From positions 620,001-684,000 of the forward strand of contig NZ_NFSC01000031.1 in assembly GCF_002157505.1 (NCBI RefSeq): a stretch of 64,000 nucleotides of DNA. Reading direction: 5' to 3'. The notes below the pieces were generated by a model that saw nothing but the letters and a program-made list of their open reading frames with translations, ran no database searches and was not told the origin of the DNA. Positions 52,793 to 59,258 of this stretch are shown here, piece by piece (position 1 is the first letter of the stretch; each line of letters starts with the position of its first letter). Made by a program: the position numbers and the translations under genes. This stretch comes from Arthrobacter agilis. GTDB lineage: Bacteria; Actinomycetota; Actinomycetes; Actinomycetales; Micrococcaceae.

Positions 52793-53476
52793 ATGACGCC
52801 GTCCAGCCGCCCGTTACGGGCACCAATACGGGCACCGTTCCGGTACCGGCTCCGCCGGCTCATGCACCGCCACAAACGGCTTCTCGCCTGCCTGCTCCTC
52901 AGTGCGGCGGCCGGGGTCGCCGTCGAGGCGGCGGTGGGCGACGACTACCCGACGACGGCGGTGGTCAGCGCGTCCCATGACCTCGCGGTCGGGGCGGTCC
53001 TGACGGAGGCCGACGTCGCCATGGTCCAGCTCCCCGAAGAGGCCCTCAGCAGGGACACCTTCAGCCTGCCCGAGCAGGTGCTCGGGCAGCAGTTGGCCGT
53101 TCCCCTGTCCCAGGGGTCCCCCGTGGCCGCGACCGCCCTCGTAGGGGACGGACTGCTGACGGGCACCGCACCCGGCACCGTCGCGGTCCCCCTCCGCCCG
53201 GCCGACCCCGCCACCGTCCAGCTGCTCGCCCCGGGCCAGCTCGTCGACGTGATCCTCAGTACGGGCAACGGCTACGACGCCGCTGCGGAGTCCACCGTCC
53301 TGGCCCGCTCCGTCGCCGTCCTCTGGACGTCCCCGGGCGGTACCGGAAGCACCTGGCCAGGCGCGGGGGACGCAGGCGGGCTGGTGGTCATTGCCGCCCG
53401 CGCGGCCGACGCCGAGGCCCTCGCCGGGTCCTCCAGCGCGGGCGACGTCCACCTCGTCCTGACCGCCGGGCGGTGA
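52793..53476 (+). CDS. Orphan SAF/CpaB-type pilus-assembly-like protein
   Basis: 227 residues. A basic N-terminus with a hydrophobic helix (about 30-48) is followed by an SAF-like domain (VVSASHDLAVGAVLTEADVAMVQLPEEAL) and an RcpC/CpaB-like second domain (GTVAVPLRPADPATVQLLAPGQLVDVILS). CpaB proteins link the Flp/Tad pilus to the wall, but no other tad gene is in the window. Convergent with the helicase-like gene, 37 bases away. A cell-envelope role is inferred. Confidence 0.75.
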   Translation: MTPSSRPLRAPIRAPFRYRLRRLMHRHKRLLACLLLSAAAGVAVEAAVGDDYPTTAVVSASHDLAVGAVLTEADVAMVQLPEEALSRDTFSLPEQVLGQQLAVPLSQGSPVAATALVGDGLLTGTAPGTVAVPLRPADPATVQLLAPGQLVDVILSTGNGYDAAAESTVLARSVAVLWTSPGGTGSTWPGAGDAGGLVVIAARAADAEALAGSSSAGDVHLVLTAGR

Positions 53477-53513: not shown

Positions 53514-56500
53514 TCAGCCCCAGTGCGGCGGACGCTGCTCCCTGAGCCACTCGTCGTGGTTGTTCTCGGCGTCTCCCCAGGACCGGGGATCGTCCTCGCC
53601 CGCGGTCGTCGGGATGGCGGGCGACGCGTCGCCGGTCCCGTCGGGCTCACCGTCTATGGTGGTCCAGCCACCGGGGTGCTGCTCGTCCTTCCGCATCCTG
53701 GCGGGGTCCTTTCCTGTCCGTGCCTGGTCCGGGGTCTCGCGCGGCGGCAGCCCGATGAGGGCCGACGCACGCTCCGCGCAACCATCGGGATCGGTGAAGA
53801 CCTCGATGGTCCAGAGCGGCATGTACCGCCAGCCCATGCGCTCGAGGACCTGGGGGCGCAGGCGGCTGCGCTCCCGCACGGACATCGACCCGTAGCGGCT
53901 GGTGCCGTCCGATTCGATGGCCAGCGGAGCGGGGCGCTCGTCCTGTACCGCAGCGGCGCTCCCGTCCGCCCGGAGGTCCGCCGGTCGTACCGCGACGATG
54001 TCCAGGACGCCGGCGTAGTGGTCCCACACCTCTGCGCCGCGGTGCCGCAGCCGGTCCACGAGGTCCGCCACCAGCGGATCCTCGTTGCCGCCGGACGCGG
54101 CAGGGCTTCGCCCTGCACCGCTGCCGAGTTCGCGCTGGAGCAACTCGAAGAAGTCCAGGGCACCCGTGGTGAGCCGGTCCGGATCCAGGTCGGACGGCTC
54201 GAAGCACGTCAGCACATGCTGCAGGCGCCGGGCCCGCGTCATCGCCATGACGAAGTTGCGGCGGCCATCCGGGCCCGACAGCGGACCGAACGTGTGCAGT
54301 GCCCGCCCATGCGGAGTCCGCCCGTACCCGAGCGAGAAGATGATGTCGTCGCGGACGAGGCCGCCCGCGCGCTCGACGGGGACCACACGGAAAGCCTCCC
54401 TGCCCGGAGTGAAGAAGCCGGCGGCCCACGGGAATTCCGCCATCTGCATGCGGATGGCTTCCCCCACCCGGGCCGCGTGCCGGGCGCTGGCCGTCACGAC
54501 GGCCAGGGAGAGGTTGGGGCGGCGGCGGATGTGGTCGAAGACGAGTTCGACGACCCGGTTAACCTCGACGGCGACGCTCTCCACGCCGTCGTGCTCGGAG
54601 CTCGGCATCCCGGTGCCGTTCGGAAGGTACTCGACCACCAGGCCGCGTCCCTCCCCCGTCACCTCGGAGGCCTGCGGAAGCCGGGAGAGCTTCCCGCCGT
54701 AGAACGATTCGCTGAGATAGGTGTCCAAAGCCCGGTCGACGCCGCGGTAGATCTCGGTGAGTCCGCGGACGGGCAGCACCTCGCGCAGGGAGTCGAACGC
54801 ACTCGGCAGGGGCTCGAGCGTGGACGCGCGGTCGGCGGACTGCACCTCGATACTGAAGCGGGTGGGGCCGGCGAGGCGATCGTCGCCGAACACCAGGACC
54901 TGGGAGGCCCGCGCCACGCAGGGCACCGCACTCTGCAGCGACATCGACTCCCCATCGAGGATGACGGCGGTGTCGAAGGTGTACCCCTCGGGCACGGCGC
55001 CCCTGATGGTGAGCGGACTGACCGCCCAGACCGGCACCAGTGCAGCCACGAGGTCCCGGTGCAGGCCCGCGAAGACCTCGAGGGTGAGCGTGCCGTCCTT
55101 GAGTTCCTGCCGCAGGCGTGCGGCGTCCTCCGGGTGGGCCTCCACCGCGGCGCGCCAGCGCTCGGCGAGCGTCCACCGGATGCGGGCCGGCCCGGAAGCG
55201 ACGTGGGCGTTGTCCGCAAGGCGGTATTCGGCCTCCAGCTTGCGGAGGCTGTCGCCGTCCGACATGGCGAGGTAGTCATCGCCGCTGATCATCGCCTCGA
55301 GGGCGGACTGCCACCAGGCGAGTTCGAGTTCGGGTCCCACGCGCTCGGCGGGGACCTCCCGTGCTGCGAGGTCGGCGAGCAGTTCACCCAGCCCCTGCTC
55401 GCGCATCTCGTCGAGCAGCAGCGTGCGCTCCGGCAACGTCTCCAGGGTGTCCTTGTCCAGCGCGAGGTCACGCAGGAGGGCTTCGAGGCCGTCCAGGTCG
55501 AGTGCCGCGAGGTCAGGGCTGCCGGCGGTGGGCCGCAGGATCGTGGTCAGCTCCGCGAGAAGGACCTCGACGGCGCGGTAGGACGCGTGGATCTCCGCCA
55601 GCCCCGTCGGAACGGACGGGTGCCGTTCGGTGAGGGCGTAGCGGGTCCACAGCGTACGCTGCTGCTGCACCTCGAGCAGGGAGGTGTGCAGGTCCGAGAT
55701 GTGCACACCCGGCCGGATGTACTCCTTGGCAACGCGCCGCAGCCTCGACCTCGTCATCGAGCTCATCTCGATGTCGCGCTCCTTGCGCCACGACGATGGC
55801 GCCGTCGCGGAGATCAGGTCGGTGACGGGACGGTCGAAGATGTCCGACGTGAACTTGTCGAGGCTCTCACGCACCGCGACCAGGAGCTCGAGCTGCTCGC
55901 CCCACTCCTTGAACGTTCCGCCGAGCGTGATGTGCGAATGCTCCGCGACGCGCTGCACCTTGCCCCGGAGCTCGGGGATCTCGGTGGACAGCTGCTCGGC
56001 GAGACCGTGCGCGTGCTCGGTCTCCTTGCGGTTGAGCAGCTGCGCCCCGTACCAGGGGCTCTCGGTCGAGGCCTTGCTGAAGCTGCCCAGCTCGGCGGCC
56101 CGCTGGAGCCGCTCGGTCAGACCCCTGCGGTCCGCGATGGAGTCGAGCACGCTGCGCTTGAGGCGCACCGTCGTGGACGGCGAGGGGTCGAGCGCGGTGA
56201 GGCCGGCGAGCGACTGCATGGCCTGGTAGGGCGAGCATCCCCAGCGGCTGCGGACGTTGTGGAGGCTCCGGACGTGCTCCATCAGCTGGTGGCGGTGTCC
56301 GGTCAGCGTGGAATGCAGCGTTTCGAGTTGCGGTTCGACGGCCTTCTCGTTGCGGACGAGGGCGCGGATGACGGCCTCGCGCAGCTGCGCCGGACCGGTC
56401 TGGCTGCCTACCTGGAGCACGAGGGACCCGAGGTTGAGGCCGTCGAGGTCCTGCACGAATTCGTTGAGGCTGCCCCGGCGCTCCGCCGCGACGACGACAC

Positions 56501-57578
56501 GCTTGCCGGCGGCGGCGGACCTGGCGGCCACGTTCAGGGCGGTCTGGGTCTGGCCCGTGCCCGGCGGTGTGGCGACGGCGACGCTGACGCCGGCGGAGGC
56601 GAGGTCGAGCACATCCTGCTGCGCCCGGTCCGCGTCGAGGATCAGGAGTTCCTCGACGGGGTCCCGCTCGTCGGCGGGAGGGAAGGACAGTTCGTCCGCG
56701 CTCCCCGACAGGGCCGAGGCGGCCGCGGCGTCGCCCCTGGCCGAAGCCATGAGTGCGGCGAGGACCGGGTGGTCGGGGCGCAGGGCCGGATCTCCCTTGA
56801 CGCCGGCGAGGTCGGCGAAGGTCGACACCAGGATCCGGTGTTCGACGGACATCCCGCGGACGTCGGCGCTCAGCGCCCGCATGCGCTCCAGGACCGGGTG
56901 CGGGTCGAAGCGGGCAGTGCCGTAGGCGAGCCGGGCGATGGCGGGAGGATCCACCTGGAGGCCCTGATGGTGGCGCAGGTGGCGCACGAGGGCAGGATTC
57001 ATCCGGGCCTGCTCGGTGATCTGCAGCTCGTAGTCGTCCTGCGACGGGTGCACCGTCAGGGAGACCGCCGTGAGGAGTATCGGTGCGTTCAGGGTCTCGG
57101 AGCGTCCGGAGTCGTCCACCGAACGCCACGACGCGGTGCCGGCGGCCAGGTACCCGACGTCGATGCCGCGCTCGGTGCCGAGTTCGAAGATCTTCGCGCG
57201 CAGGGCACGGGCAGCGGCTTTCGCGGCGCTGTACTGGACCGGATCGCGCAGGAGCGTCGACAGGCGCGTGCGGCGCCCGGCGAGGAGCTGCGCGAGTCCC
57301 GAGGGGTGCGCGTGGGTCAGGTCGATGCTCGTACCGGCAGACGGCCGGAAATGGAGCAGCGTATCCCCCGTCGCCTGCGGTCCGAGCCCCTCGAGCCAGG
57401 GCAGGAGGAAGTCCTGGGCGGCATCGTCGGACGGTGCCGGGTGCTGCTCCGACCGGGCGCCCTGTCGGTCCGCGTGCGGCTGATCCGCCGGCGTCCCTAC
57501 CGCATCCCGCTGGTCCTGCTCCGGCACGACCGCCTTCTTTCCTGCATTGTCACGTGCTGATCTCGACCAGATGGGCAT
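53514..57578 (-). CDS. Degenerate SF1-helicase-like protein with Vsr/MTES_1575-type nuclease domain
   Basis: 1354 residues, by far the largest protein here. Residues 45-290 resemble DUF4011-type N-domains. A helicase core follows whose Walker A reads TPPGTGQTQTA (Gln343 in place of the lysine). Walker B region reads ILDGESMSLQSA near residue 875, with DGES for DEAS. Motif V (expected QGxExD) reads AGGLVRDD; motif VI MAMTRARR remains. Residues about 1195-1310 match a Vsr-like REase domain: LDIVAV, LAIESDGTSRYGS, RLRPQVLERMGWRY, WTIEVF. ATP hydrolysis is doubtful; the nuclease looks intact. ATG at 57578; a TTG 45 bases earlier is possible. Confidence 0.8.
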   Translation of the reverse strand: MPIWSRSARDNAGKKAVVPEQDQRDAVGTPADQPHADRQGARSEQHPAPSDDAAQDFLLPWLEGLGPQATGDTLLHFRPSAGTSIDLTHAHPSGLAQLLAGRRTRLSTLLRDPVQYSAAKAAARALRAKIFELGTERGIDVGYLAAGTASWRSVDDSGRSETLNAPILLTAVSLTVHPSQDDYELQITEQARMNPALVRHLRHHQGLQVDPPAIARLAYGTARFDPHPVLERMRALSADVRGMSVEHRILVSTFADLAGVKGDPALRPDHPVLAALMASARGDAAAASALSGSADELSFPPADERDPVEELLILDADRAQQDVLDLASAGVSVAVATPPGTGQTQTALNVAARSAAAGKRVVVAAERRGSLNEFVQDLDGLNLGSLVLQVGSQTGPAQLREAVIRALVRNEKAVEPQLETLHSTLTGHRHQLMEHVRSLHNVRSRWGCSPYQAMQSLAGLTALDPSPSTTVRLKRSVLDSIADRRGLTERLQRAAELGSFSKASTESPWYGAQLLNRKETEHAHGLAEQLSTEIPELRGKVQRVAEHSHITLGGTFKEWGEQLELLVAVRESLDKFTSDIFDRPVTDLISATAPSSWRKERDIEMSSMTRSRLRRVAKEYIRPGVHISDLHTSLLEVQQQRTLWTRYALTERHPSVPTGLAEIHASYRAVEVLLAELTTILRPTAGSPDLAALDLDGLEALLRDLALDKDTLETLPERTLLLDEMREQGLGELLADLAAREVPAERVGPELELAWWQSALEAMISGDDYLAMSDGDSLRKLEAEYRLADNAHVASGPARIRWTLAERWRAAVEAHPEDAARLRQELKDGTLTLEVFAGLHRDLVAALVPVWAVSPLTIRGAVPEGYTFDTAVILDGESMSLQSAVPCVARASQVLVFGDDRLAGPTRFSIEVQSADRASTLEPLPSAFDSLREVLPVRGLTEIYRGVDRALDTYLSESFYGGKLSRLPQASEVTGEGRGLVVEYLPNGTGMPSSEHDGVESVAVEVNRVVELVFDHIRRRPNLSLAVVTASARHAARVGEAIRMQMAEFPWAAGFFTPGREAFRVVPVERAGGLVRDDIIFSLGYGRTPHGRALHTFGPLSGPDGRRNFVMAMTRARRLQHVLTCFEPSDLDPDRLTTGALDFFELLQRELGSGAGRSPAASGGNEDPLVADLVDRLRHRGAEVWDHYAGVLDIVAVRPADLRADGSAAAVQDERPAPLAIESDGTSRYGSMSVRERSRLRPQVLERMGWRYMPLWTIEVFTDPDGCAERASALIGLPPRETPDQARTGKDPARMRKDEQHPGGWTTIDGEPDGTGDASPAIPTTAGEDDPRSWGDAENNHDEWLREQRPPHWG

Positions 57579-57671: not shown

Positions 57672-59258
57672 CTACTCCCATTCGATGGTTCCCGGCGGCT
57701 TGCTCGTCACGTCGAGCACCACGCGGTTGACCCCGTCCACCTCGTTGGTGATCCGGTTGGAGATCCGGGCCAGGAGGTCGTACGGCAGGCGCGACCAGTC
57801 GGCCGTCATGGCGTCCTCGCTCGATACCGGACGCAGCACGATCGGGTGGCCGTACGTGCGTCCGTCACCCTGGACACCGACGCTGCGCACGTCGGCGAGC
57901 AGGACGACCGGCATCTGCCACACCTCGTTGTCGAGCCCTGCCGCCGTGAGCTCGGCGCGGGCTATCGCGTCGGCCTTGCGCAGGAGCTCGAGGCGCTCCT
58001 CGGTCACGTCGCCGACGATGCGGATGCCGAGCCCGGGGCCGGGGAACGGCTGGCGTCCCACGATCTCCGCGGGCAAACCGAGCTGGGCTCCGACGGCACG
58101 CACCTCGTCCTTGAAGAGGGTCCGGAGCGGTTCCACGAGCTCGAACTGCAGGTCCTCGGGCAGGCCTCCCACGTTGTGGTGGCTCTTGATGTTGGCGGCG
58201 CCTTCTCCTCCGCCCGATTCGACGACGTCGGGGTAGAGGGTGCCCTGCACCAGGAAGCGGATGGGCTCGCCCTCGGCTTCCGCCTCCCGCATGATGGCGC
58301 GTTCGGCTTCCTCGAACGCGCGGATGAACTCGCGCCCGATGATCTTGCGCTTGGTCTCGGGGTCCGAGACGCCGGCGAGTGCGTCGAGGAACCGCTTCTG
58401 CTCGTTGGCGACGTAGAGCTTCACGCCGGTCGCGGCGACGAAGTCGCGCTCCACCTGCTCGGCCTCACCCTCGCGGAGGAGTCCGTGGTCCACGAAGACG
58501 CAGGTGAGCTGGTCGCCGACCGCACGCTGCACGAGCGCGGCGGCGACGGCGGAGTCGACGCCTCCGGAGAGTCCGCAGATCACGCGGGAGTCGCCGATCT
58601 GCTCGCGGATGCGCTCCACCTGTTCCTCGAGGATGTTCCGCGTGGTCCAGTTCGGGTCGAGCCGCGCACCCCGGAAGAGGAAGTTCTCGATCACGGCCTG
58701 GCCGTGCTGGGAATGCTTGACCTCCGGGTGCCACTGCACGCCGTAGAGGCTCTTCTCCTCGTTCGCGAAGGCGGCCACCGGGGCGCCTGCAGTGCTGGCG
58801 AGGACGTCGAAGCCCTCCGGAGCGGACTGGACGCTGTCGCCGTGGCTCATCCAGGCGTTCTGGTGTTCGGGGGTGCCGCTGAGGATGGACCGGGCTTCGC
58901 CGTCGGACCGGACGTCCGTGGAGCCGTATTCCCGCAGGCCCGTCTTTGCAACGGTGCCCCCGAGGGCGTTGGCCATGGCCTGGAACCCGTAGCAGATCCC
59001 GAGGACGGGCACGCCGGCGTCGAACAGATCCGCGTCCACCCGGGGCGCACCTTCCGCGTACACGCTGGAAGGACCACCCGAGAGGATGATGGCTGCGGGG
59101 TTCTTCGCGAGGATCTGCTGCGTGCTGAGCGTGTGCGGCACGATCTCGGAGTAGACGTCGGCCTCGCGGACGCGGCGTGCGATCAGCTGGGCGTACTGTG
59201 CGCCGTAGTCCACGACGAGGACAGGGCGGTGTTCAGAGCCGTTCTCGGGGGTAGTCAC
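57672..59258 (-). CDS. guaA: GMP synthase (glutamine-hydrolysing)
   Basis: 528 residues. N-terminal class I amidotransferase ([10 protein letters not shown] with the nucleophile Cys, and the His/Glu of [10 protein letters not shown]), then the ATP-pyrophosphatase loop [16 protein letters not shown] and the C-terminal dimer domain ending [10 protein letters not shown]- like residues and PPGTIEWE. Converts XMP to GMP, the last step of guanylate synthesis. GTG at 59258; TATTGT six bases upstream suggests leaderless translation. GuaB3 at the right edge belongs to the same purine branch. Confidence 0.97.

Follow-up and report, generated by a model that had tools for sequence, protein, structure and literature searches.

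The window analysed here, 64,000 nucleotides of Arthrobacter agilis DNA, carries on its minus strand a gene for a protein that retains the layout of a DUF4011 helicase-nuclease of superfamily 1 (SF1) and has lost the motifs of its ATPase. The gene occurs throughout the order (Actinomycetales) and is under purifying selection; within the order the ATPase has been lost repeatedly, and a short C-terminal tip has repeatedly been fused to the large protein or split from it. The reading that we favour, and consider fairly probable, is that of a vertically inherited core protein whose motor was lost and which now serves as a scaffold that holds nucleic acid without ATP and recruits a partner through its tail. 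Since the motor is lost, almost all sampled genomes of the order carry the gene and it usually lies beside, or is fused with, a gene for a previously undescribed small protein, the product is probably a scaffold and not an engine or a phage-defence weapon. The start codon ATG lies at 57578 and the stop codon ends at 53514. The parts of the gene are as follows.

53514..57578, minus strand: whole gene, 1354 amino acids (aa); DUF4011, degenerate UPF1-like SF1 helicase, Vsr/MTES_1575-type nuclease fold, disordered linker, PPHW tip
56976..57362, minus strand: DUF4011 domain, residues 73-201 (Pfam PF13195, 34.1 bits, cut-off 22.2)
56541..56567, minus strand: degenerate Walker A motif PPGTGQTQT, residues 338-346, with the Gln343 codon CAG at 56550-56552
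55659..55901, minus strand: all-helical middle, residues 560-640, with the order-specific conserved positions R598, R610, R612, R622, D629, H631 and L634
54945..54965, minus strand: degenerate Walker B motif VILDGES, residues 872-878, placed by alignment
54861..54893, minus strand: motif III VFGDDRLAGPT, residues 896-906, GD kept and Gln lost
54726..54755, minus strand: region of motif IV, residues 942-951 (WHYRSxDERL in intact forms)
54348..54368, minus strand: motif V remnant AGGLVRD, residues 1071-1077; Arg1076 is present in 49 of the 52 dead rows introduced below
54303..54329, minus strand: order-specific loop GYGRTPHGR, residues 1084-1092
54225..54245, minus strand: motif VI AMTRARR, residues 1112-1118, kept here and lost in several families
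53724..54086, minus strand: nuclease fold, residues 1165-1285, with the candidate catalytic residues D1193, E1222 and D1224 present (PF18741, 35.7 bits, E 9.3e-9)
53601..53711, minus strand: disordered, fast-evolving linker, residues 1290-1326; pooled ratio of nonsynonymous to synonymous substitution rates (dN/dS) 0.40, predicted local distance difference test score (pLDDT) about 30
53517..53600, minus strand: conserved C-terminal tip, residues 1327-1354, GEDDPRSWGDAENNHDEWLREQRPPHWG (pooled dN/dS 0.117); in other genera and families, most loci sampled have it at the end of a distinct gene downstream

An earlier reading of the letters alone (the sequence-only reading) had described the helicase half as a dead-looking ATPase, and alignment with relatives bears out this look, motif by motif. 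The Walker A loop PPGTGQTQT aligns without gaps to PPGTGKSQT of intact relatives, which places Gln343 at the position of the lysine. Walker B reads VILDGES as compared to VFDEASQ or similar in intact forms; in the ungapped alignment the Asp comes one residue later and the position of the Glu is not occupied by Glu. Motif V reads AGGLVRD in place of VQGDERD and is eroded like motifs III and IV; TRARR of motif VI is retained. All four features expected of an active UPF1-like SF1 helicase, the Walker A Lys, the Walker B DE, the motif III Gln and the QGxExD of motif V, are thus missing. The sequence-only reading had also asked whether Gln343 is fixed in the family. GQTQT was found in 33/33 readable rows of the genus (a count that leaves out L022, whose Walker loop is unreadable, and G023), and Gln occupies the Walker A position in 80/80 named Micrococcaceae loci, the best 80 of 501 relatives, so that the residue is fixed in the sampled Micrococcaceae. 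The nearest named relatives within this set are Arthrobacter species, including A. ruber, A. cheniae, A. bussei and A. echini. The 80 loci include three (L159, L172 and L224) with record titles at odds with their sequence. Labelled as Vibrio cholerae, Acidobacteria bacterium and Sporosarcina, they hold Micrococcaceae-like copies with 89, 55 and 54% identity, and the titles or assemblies of these records are probably wrong.

Two trivial explanations for the glutamine were rejected. A lysine that is merely shifted, which the sequence-only reading had named as a possible objection, does not account for it: there is no GK[ST] anywhere in the window protein, and 50 of the 52 dead rows have no Lys in residues 330-352. 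A sequencing error is ruled out by the codon CAG in 28/28 aligned coding sequences of the genus.

The order-wide comparison rests on 60 loci that were hand-picked for spread over families and genera and are thus not a random sample (L001/L002, the window itself, were dropped), and on five outgroup rows chosen for high scores. The Walker A lysine is missing in 55 of these 60 order loci, and the five that retain it belong to two families, f5 and f17. In the 52 rows of the order in which the motor is dead (L120, L124 and L140 left out), the lysine position is occupied by V in 18, A in 10, Q in 9, G in 4, L in 3, S and T in 2 each and P, I, H and R in one each; in some families outside the Micrococcaceae, the whole Walker A loop is gone. 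The Gln of motif III (Q902) is retained in 0/52 dead rows. Taking the 197 columns that are invariant in 11 intact forms, and with motif segments delimited by hand, the helicase motif segments hold 18/69 columns that are kept in at most 5% of the 52 dead rows, as compared to 3/128 outside the segments (Fisher p 6e-7).

The loss of the ATPase happened repeatedly in the order. The motifs are retained in one family and in part of another, as well as in relatives from outside the order, of which the five short outgroup picks all have them intact. On an order tree from which the motif columns had been excluded, three switches of the lysine state are seen, and a single clade of all dead rows was rejected (approximately unbiased test, p-AU 1.5e-6), even though one loss of the lysine would cover a clade of 53 rows. 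The process is most visible in family f17, where 57/59 genomes carry the gene. The loop is readable in 56 rows of this family: 26 count as fully intact under our own rule, 10 retain the lysine but lack other motif residues, and 20 are without the lysine (L275, with a broken loop, stands outside these counts). The lysine state switches 8 times on the f17 tree of 59 rows, and a single lysine-loss clade within the family was likewise rejected (p-AU 4.7e-34). In both tests, the groups had been defined by their motifs once a tree had been inspected. All trees were quick ones without bootstrap and with long branches. They leave out L085, which is truncated, and L097, whose motif row is identical to that of L066; one tree placed the window row inside f17, which we took as an artefact, and the final f17 tree was built without this row, L294 and L275.

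In spite of these losses, the gene is kept. A match at E <=1e-20 was found in 295/297 genomes and 92/92 genera of the order, where a paralogue may replace the gene in a few weak cases, and in 57/57 genomes of the relatives search, the window's own included. The only two order genomes without a match, G100 and G158, are fragmented assemblies of about 170 and 580 contigs. In a sample of 296 genomes of the phylum, 29 matched, 11 of them inside the order and 18 outside. The median dN/dS over 55 pairs within the genus is 0.112 (guaA on the same pairs: 0.038), which shows purifying selection, and it differs between parts of the protein: 0.066 for residues 841-1140, 0.092 for the nuclease part, 0.27 for the C-terminal tail and 0.50 for the N-terminal 50 residues.

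The structure was predicted, as the sequence-only reading had proposed, and the model of residues 78-1277 has a pLDDT of 84.5. Its best Foldseek match is Setx (E 7.5e-12), followed by weaker ones including spliceosomal Aquarius, with IGHMBP2, Dna2 and Upf1 also within the top 10. These matches indicate a predicted fold of UPF1-like SF1 type, with the tandem RecA-like core of UPF1/IGHMBP2, albeit with low similarity scores that are given below. A sequence search found no relative of solved structure. In the Pfam scan of the 1354-aa protein, DUF4011 scored above its cut-off, the MTES_1575 model stayed just below its cut-off of 38.2, and no AAA model was reached (AAA_11 at E 0.24 only). Sixty positions are common to intact and dead forms, among them G898-D899, H1034, R1076, D1224 and the arginines 1235, 1237 and 1239. 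Another 48 positions are better conserved in dead than in intact forms, with several of them between residues 560 and 640 and one in the GYGRTPHGR loop. The order-specific positions of residues 560-640 are kept in the dead rows and in most of the six intact rows from within the order, and in 0 to 3 of the 5 outgroup rows. Since 40 of the 48 positions are already present in at least 5/6 of the intact forms of the order, the order-specific role seems to have existed before the ATPase was lost.

The C-terminal tip and its frequent occurrence as a separate gene, which are absent from the sequence-only reading, are new here. The window protein ends in GEDDPRSWGDAENNHDEWLREQRPPHWG, which includes WLREQRPPHWG, and among 11 rows of the genus this tip evolves slowly and the linker in front of it fast. 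The tip ends the large frame in 60/77 named loci (counted without the three records of discordant title), and the other 17 all carry it in a separate downstream frame. Across the order, a PPH[WYF] end lies within -300 to +900 nucleotides (nt) of the gene end in 48/60 loci, 11 fused and 37 separate, and a stricter tip pattern is found in 35/60. Over 2.19 million strand-bases in the remainder of the same 60 loci there are 3 ends of this kind, 2 of them by the stricter pattern, corresponding to 0.0016 expected per searched interval. In f17, the tip is present in 55/57, fused in 17 and separate in 38, including all 26 ATPase-intact rows; no tip was found in the five outgroup loci within the flanks covered. 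On the order tree there are 11 changes between the fused and the separate state, and in f17 there are 5, whereby fusion and splitting are not distinguished. This repeated fusion or splitting argues that the large and the small protein act together.

The separate small genes code for 46 to 124 aa, with one of 175 aa and one frame that lacks a start. An Arg-rich stretch occurs in many of their products. The start of the small gene overlaps the large gene in 25/37 cases, by exactly 4 nt in 13, when the start codon nearest to the stop of the large gene is taken, a choice that favours short distances. This overlap suggests translational coupling of the two genes. Three small proteins and the last 62 residues of the window protein had no Pfam or NCBIfam match, and one small gene (L235:12662-12976) is annotated in Actinomyces oris as a hypothetical protein only (WP_271289504.1). 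In the window genome, the only exact PPHW end is that of this gene when TAA and TGA stops are considered, and no PPHH end was found; a second tip match (E 0.96) was rejected, as it shows no convincing gene end.

With regard to the nuclease domain, the motifs LDIVAV and IESDG noticed in the sequence-only reading were found as described, together with D1193, E1222 and D1224. Membership in the MTES_1575/Vsr type is borderline by score, and the D and ExD residues are in place. That reading had gone on to suggest a scaffold that guides or holds back the nuclease, i.e. a dead helicase that regulates or aims a live enzyme, which would cut when the scaffold senses a structure. In favour of this, the window protein and most rows of the genus retain the triad and the RERSRL/GW elements (L010 lacks the Glu), and the nuclease part has the low dN/dS given above; the nuclease of the window's own lineage may thus still cut. 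As a conserved role, however, this did not hold up: even if D or E is allowed at the first two positions, the triad is altered in 37/52 dead rows order-wide, including 5/11 rows of the Micrococcaceae, while the gene persists, which makes cutting unlikely as a family-wide function. In f17, the triad is altered in 1/26 ATPase-intact rows as compared to 11/30 others (p 0.003, uncorrected for relatedness; 10/29 without L277, which lacks the nuclease part and was counted as altered), so that the nuclease tends to be lost where the motor is lost too. Altogether, we regard a dead helicase controlling a live nuclease as an unlikely account of the family. On the other hand, D1224 is present in 52/52 dead rows and the arginines 1235, 1237 and 1239 in about 90%, which suggests that the nuclease fold is still in use.

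The nearest annotated models are anti-phage, and we therefore weighed whether the protein is a chromosomally fixed, ATP-free defence protein related to ProA, Hhe or PDC-S37. These DUF4011 helicase-nucleases gave the best profile matches, over the helicase core and the nuclease. The window protein scored 293.2 bits with ProA (NCBIfam NF058533) and 143.3 bits with Hhe (NF042953), far below the curated cut-offs of 1500 and 2000; two ATPase-intact orthologues reached 804.3 and 815.6 bits for ProA and 519 and 547 for Hhe. For PDC-S37 (PADLOC PDLC05009), for which the library shows no cut-off, the score was 333.9 bits and the best stretch covers positions 694-1351 of the 1550 of the profile; excerpted passages on the PADLOC result for a Paenarthrobacter do not name PDC-S37 (PMC11719660). 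Distant relatives occur on 285 plasmid records, all at less than 60% identity and only one over at least 80% of the protein, and most of the annotated ones among the 15 records listed read DUF3320 or DUF4011. The phage records gave only one weak match. Unlike these systems with anti-phage names, the window protein is the product of a core gene without a motor: because matches occur in 295/297 order genomes, the neighbours are housekeeping genes and dN/dS is 0.11, the gene does not show the patchy, mobile distribution expected of phage defence. The possible role in defence raised in the sequence-only reading is thus not supported, and we consider it rather improbable. Some genomes of the genus and order additionally contain long Hhe-like relatives with intact ATPase motifs (L058, L059, L061-L064).

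The neighbours of the gene in the window are these.

57672..59258, minus strand: guaA, directly upstream
52793..53476, plus strand: SAF/RcpC-domain protein, convergent and directly downstream, common to several families

The gene adjoins guaA in 32/33 loci of the genus and in 9/10 other sampled genera of the family. A 5-formyltetrahydrofolate cyclo-ligase or galU gene lies nearby on its 3' side in many families (60 order loci, up to 20 kb). In 30 loci of 17 families, 11 families have a group of open reading frames represented by an MscL downstream of the gene and 9 have the SAF group there, and this shared neighbourhood includes the ATPase-intact families f5 and f17. In an annotated Actinomyces oris record, the order is helicase, small hypothetical gene, mscL, SAF and cyclo-ligase, and this copy has lost both the ATPase and the nuclease residues. 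The 415-kb record that holds this neighbourhood (L235, NZ_CP116225.1) is filed as a plasmid and may be a piece of chromosome. An antisense open frame of 1345 aa (53523-57560, plus strand) spans almost the whole gene of the window and is probably a product of high G+C codon usage.

A still-active nucleoside triphosphatase with a Gln P-loop would be consistent with the constraint on the loop in the sampled Micrococcaceae, where most of the loop is fixed along with Gln343. But the losses extend to the Walker B Glu, the Gln of motif III and motif V, and the other families have a wide choice of residues at this position or no loop, so that we deem such an activity very unlikely. Decay of the gene, to which in-frame stops in G003, G017, G026 and G032 and split pieces in G009 and G023 could point, can practically be dismissed in view of the low dN/dS and the long open frames in most genomes of the genus.

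Degenerate helicases that handle nucleic acids have been described. RecC and AddB are reported to use a motif-less SF1 helicase fold to handle and read DNA, and RecC also contains a nuclease-like fold without catalytic residues (PMC1185551, PMC4824097). The present family resembles both in its inactivated SF1 helicase domains, and RecC in its altered nuclease fold; unlike the window protein, RecC and AddB are UvrD-like and work within a known resection complex. The pseudohelicase PriA of Deinococcus is reported to have lost its ATPase and kept binding to DNA and partner (PMC4504706). It is likewise a conserved helicase homologue without ATPase activity, but it is another helicase, and the change described for it is Lys to Arg across Deinococcus-Thermus (PMC4504706). 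MTES_1575 of Microbacterium testaceum, after which the Pfam model is named, shares the SF1 helicase with a Vsr-type restriction endonuclease and differs from the window protein in reportedly having HEPN, transglutaminase and two winged helix-turn-helix parts in more than 2000 aa (PMC3710099). In Pseudomonas aeruginosa, the DUF4011 gene PA14_RS11765, which lies beside the defence hotspot cDHS1, is reported from every isolate and is thus described as core in that species (PMC10250203).

Replacement of a missing break-resection enzyme by the window protein was rejected as unlikely, because the genome encodes two further PDDEXK_1 proteins, about 3 kb from each other, in frames that span 1113 and 1166 aa. 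We take this pair to be AdnAB-like.

Several observations weigh against the scaffold interpretation. The triad is mostly intact in the window's genus, where an enzymatic role is possible. The Foldseek TM-scores (template modelling) are low, the top hit reaching 0.28 by query and 0.43 by target, and the net charge is neutral to negative over most of the protein, with residues 591-650 as the most basic block of 60 residues (+5). Taken as a whole, the motif columns are only modestly more eroded than the remaining invariant columns (mean kept 0.43 vs 0.56, p 0.03). The tip is missing in 12/60 order loci (5/5 in f6, 2/2 in f4 and one each in f1, f10, f13, f14 and f20), and in a second model it is undocked and mostly below pLDDT 50, which fits a partner in trans and proves nothing.

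We nevertheless favour a scaffold that holds nucleic acids, which by analogy to RecC, AddB and Deinococcus PriA is the most natural reading of the helicase half. The ancestor would have been an ATP-driven DUF4011 - UPF1-like SF1 helicase - Vsr-type nuclease whose motor was later lost, with fold and surface kept, most likely for holding DNA or RNA without ATP. The Trp/PPHW tip on its flexible linker, or the separate small tip protein, would most likely recruit or position a partner. We thus infer nucleic-acid binding, partner recruitment and a role in maintenance of chromosome or RNA rather than in immunity. More tentatively, and with somewhat less than even confidence, we propose that an immune-type helicase-nuclease was co-opted at the root of the order as a non-catalytic nucleoprotein scaffold, forming a two-part system with the PPHW-tail protein and shedding ATPase and nuclease in several independent events.

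We found no described function in the literature for this gene, although almost all members sampled from a large bacterial order have it; at the level of titles, abstracts and excerpts, nothing was found on the loss of motifs in the family or on the tip, 'PPHW' being too unspecific as a query. Profile similarity alone is not sufficient to call DUF4011 helicases defence genes. The small downstream protein offers a handle on the pathway, and a binder of the PPHW tip would be a candidate partner. In f17, intact, half-lost and dead versions stand side by side as a natural experiment on a dispensable helicase motor. If the proposed co-option is true, a RecC-like solution would have arisen a second time from unrelated proteins, with dead enzyme folds that hold or read nucleic acid before passing it to a partner via a tail, and the members of f17 would be living intermediates of the change from enzyme to scaffold.

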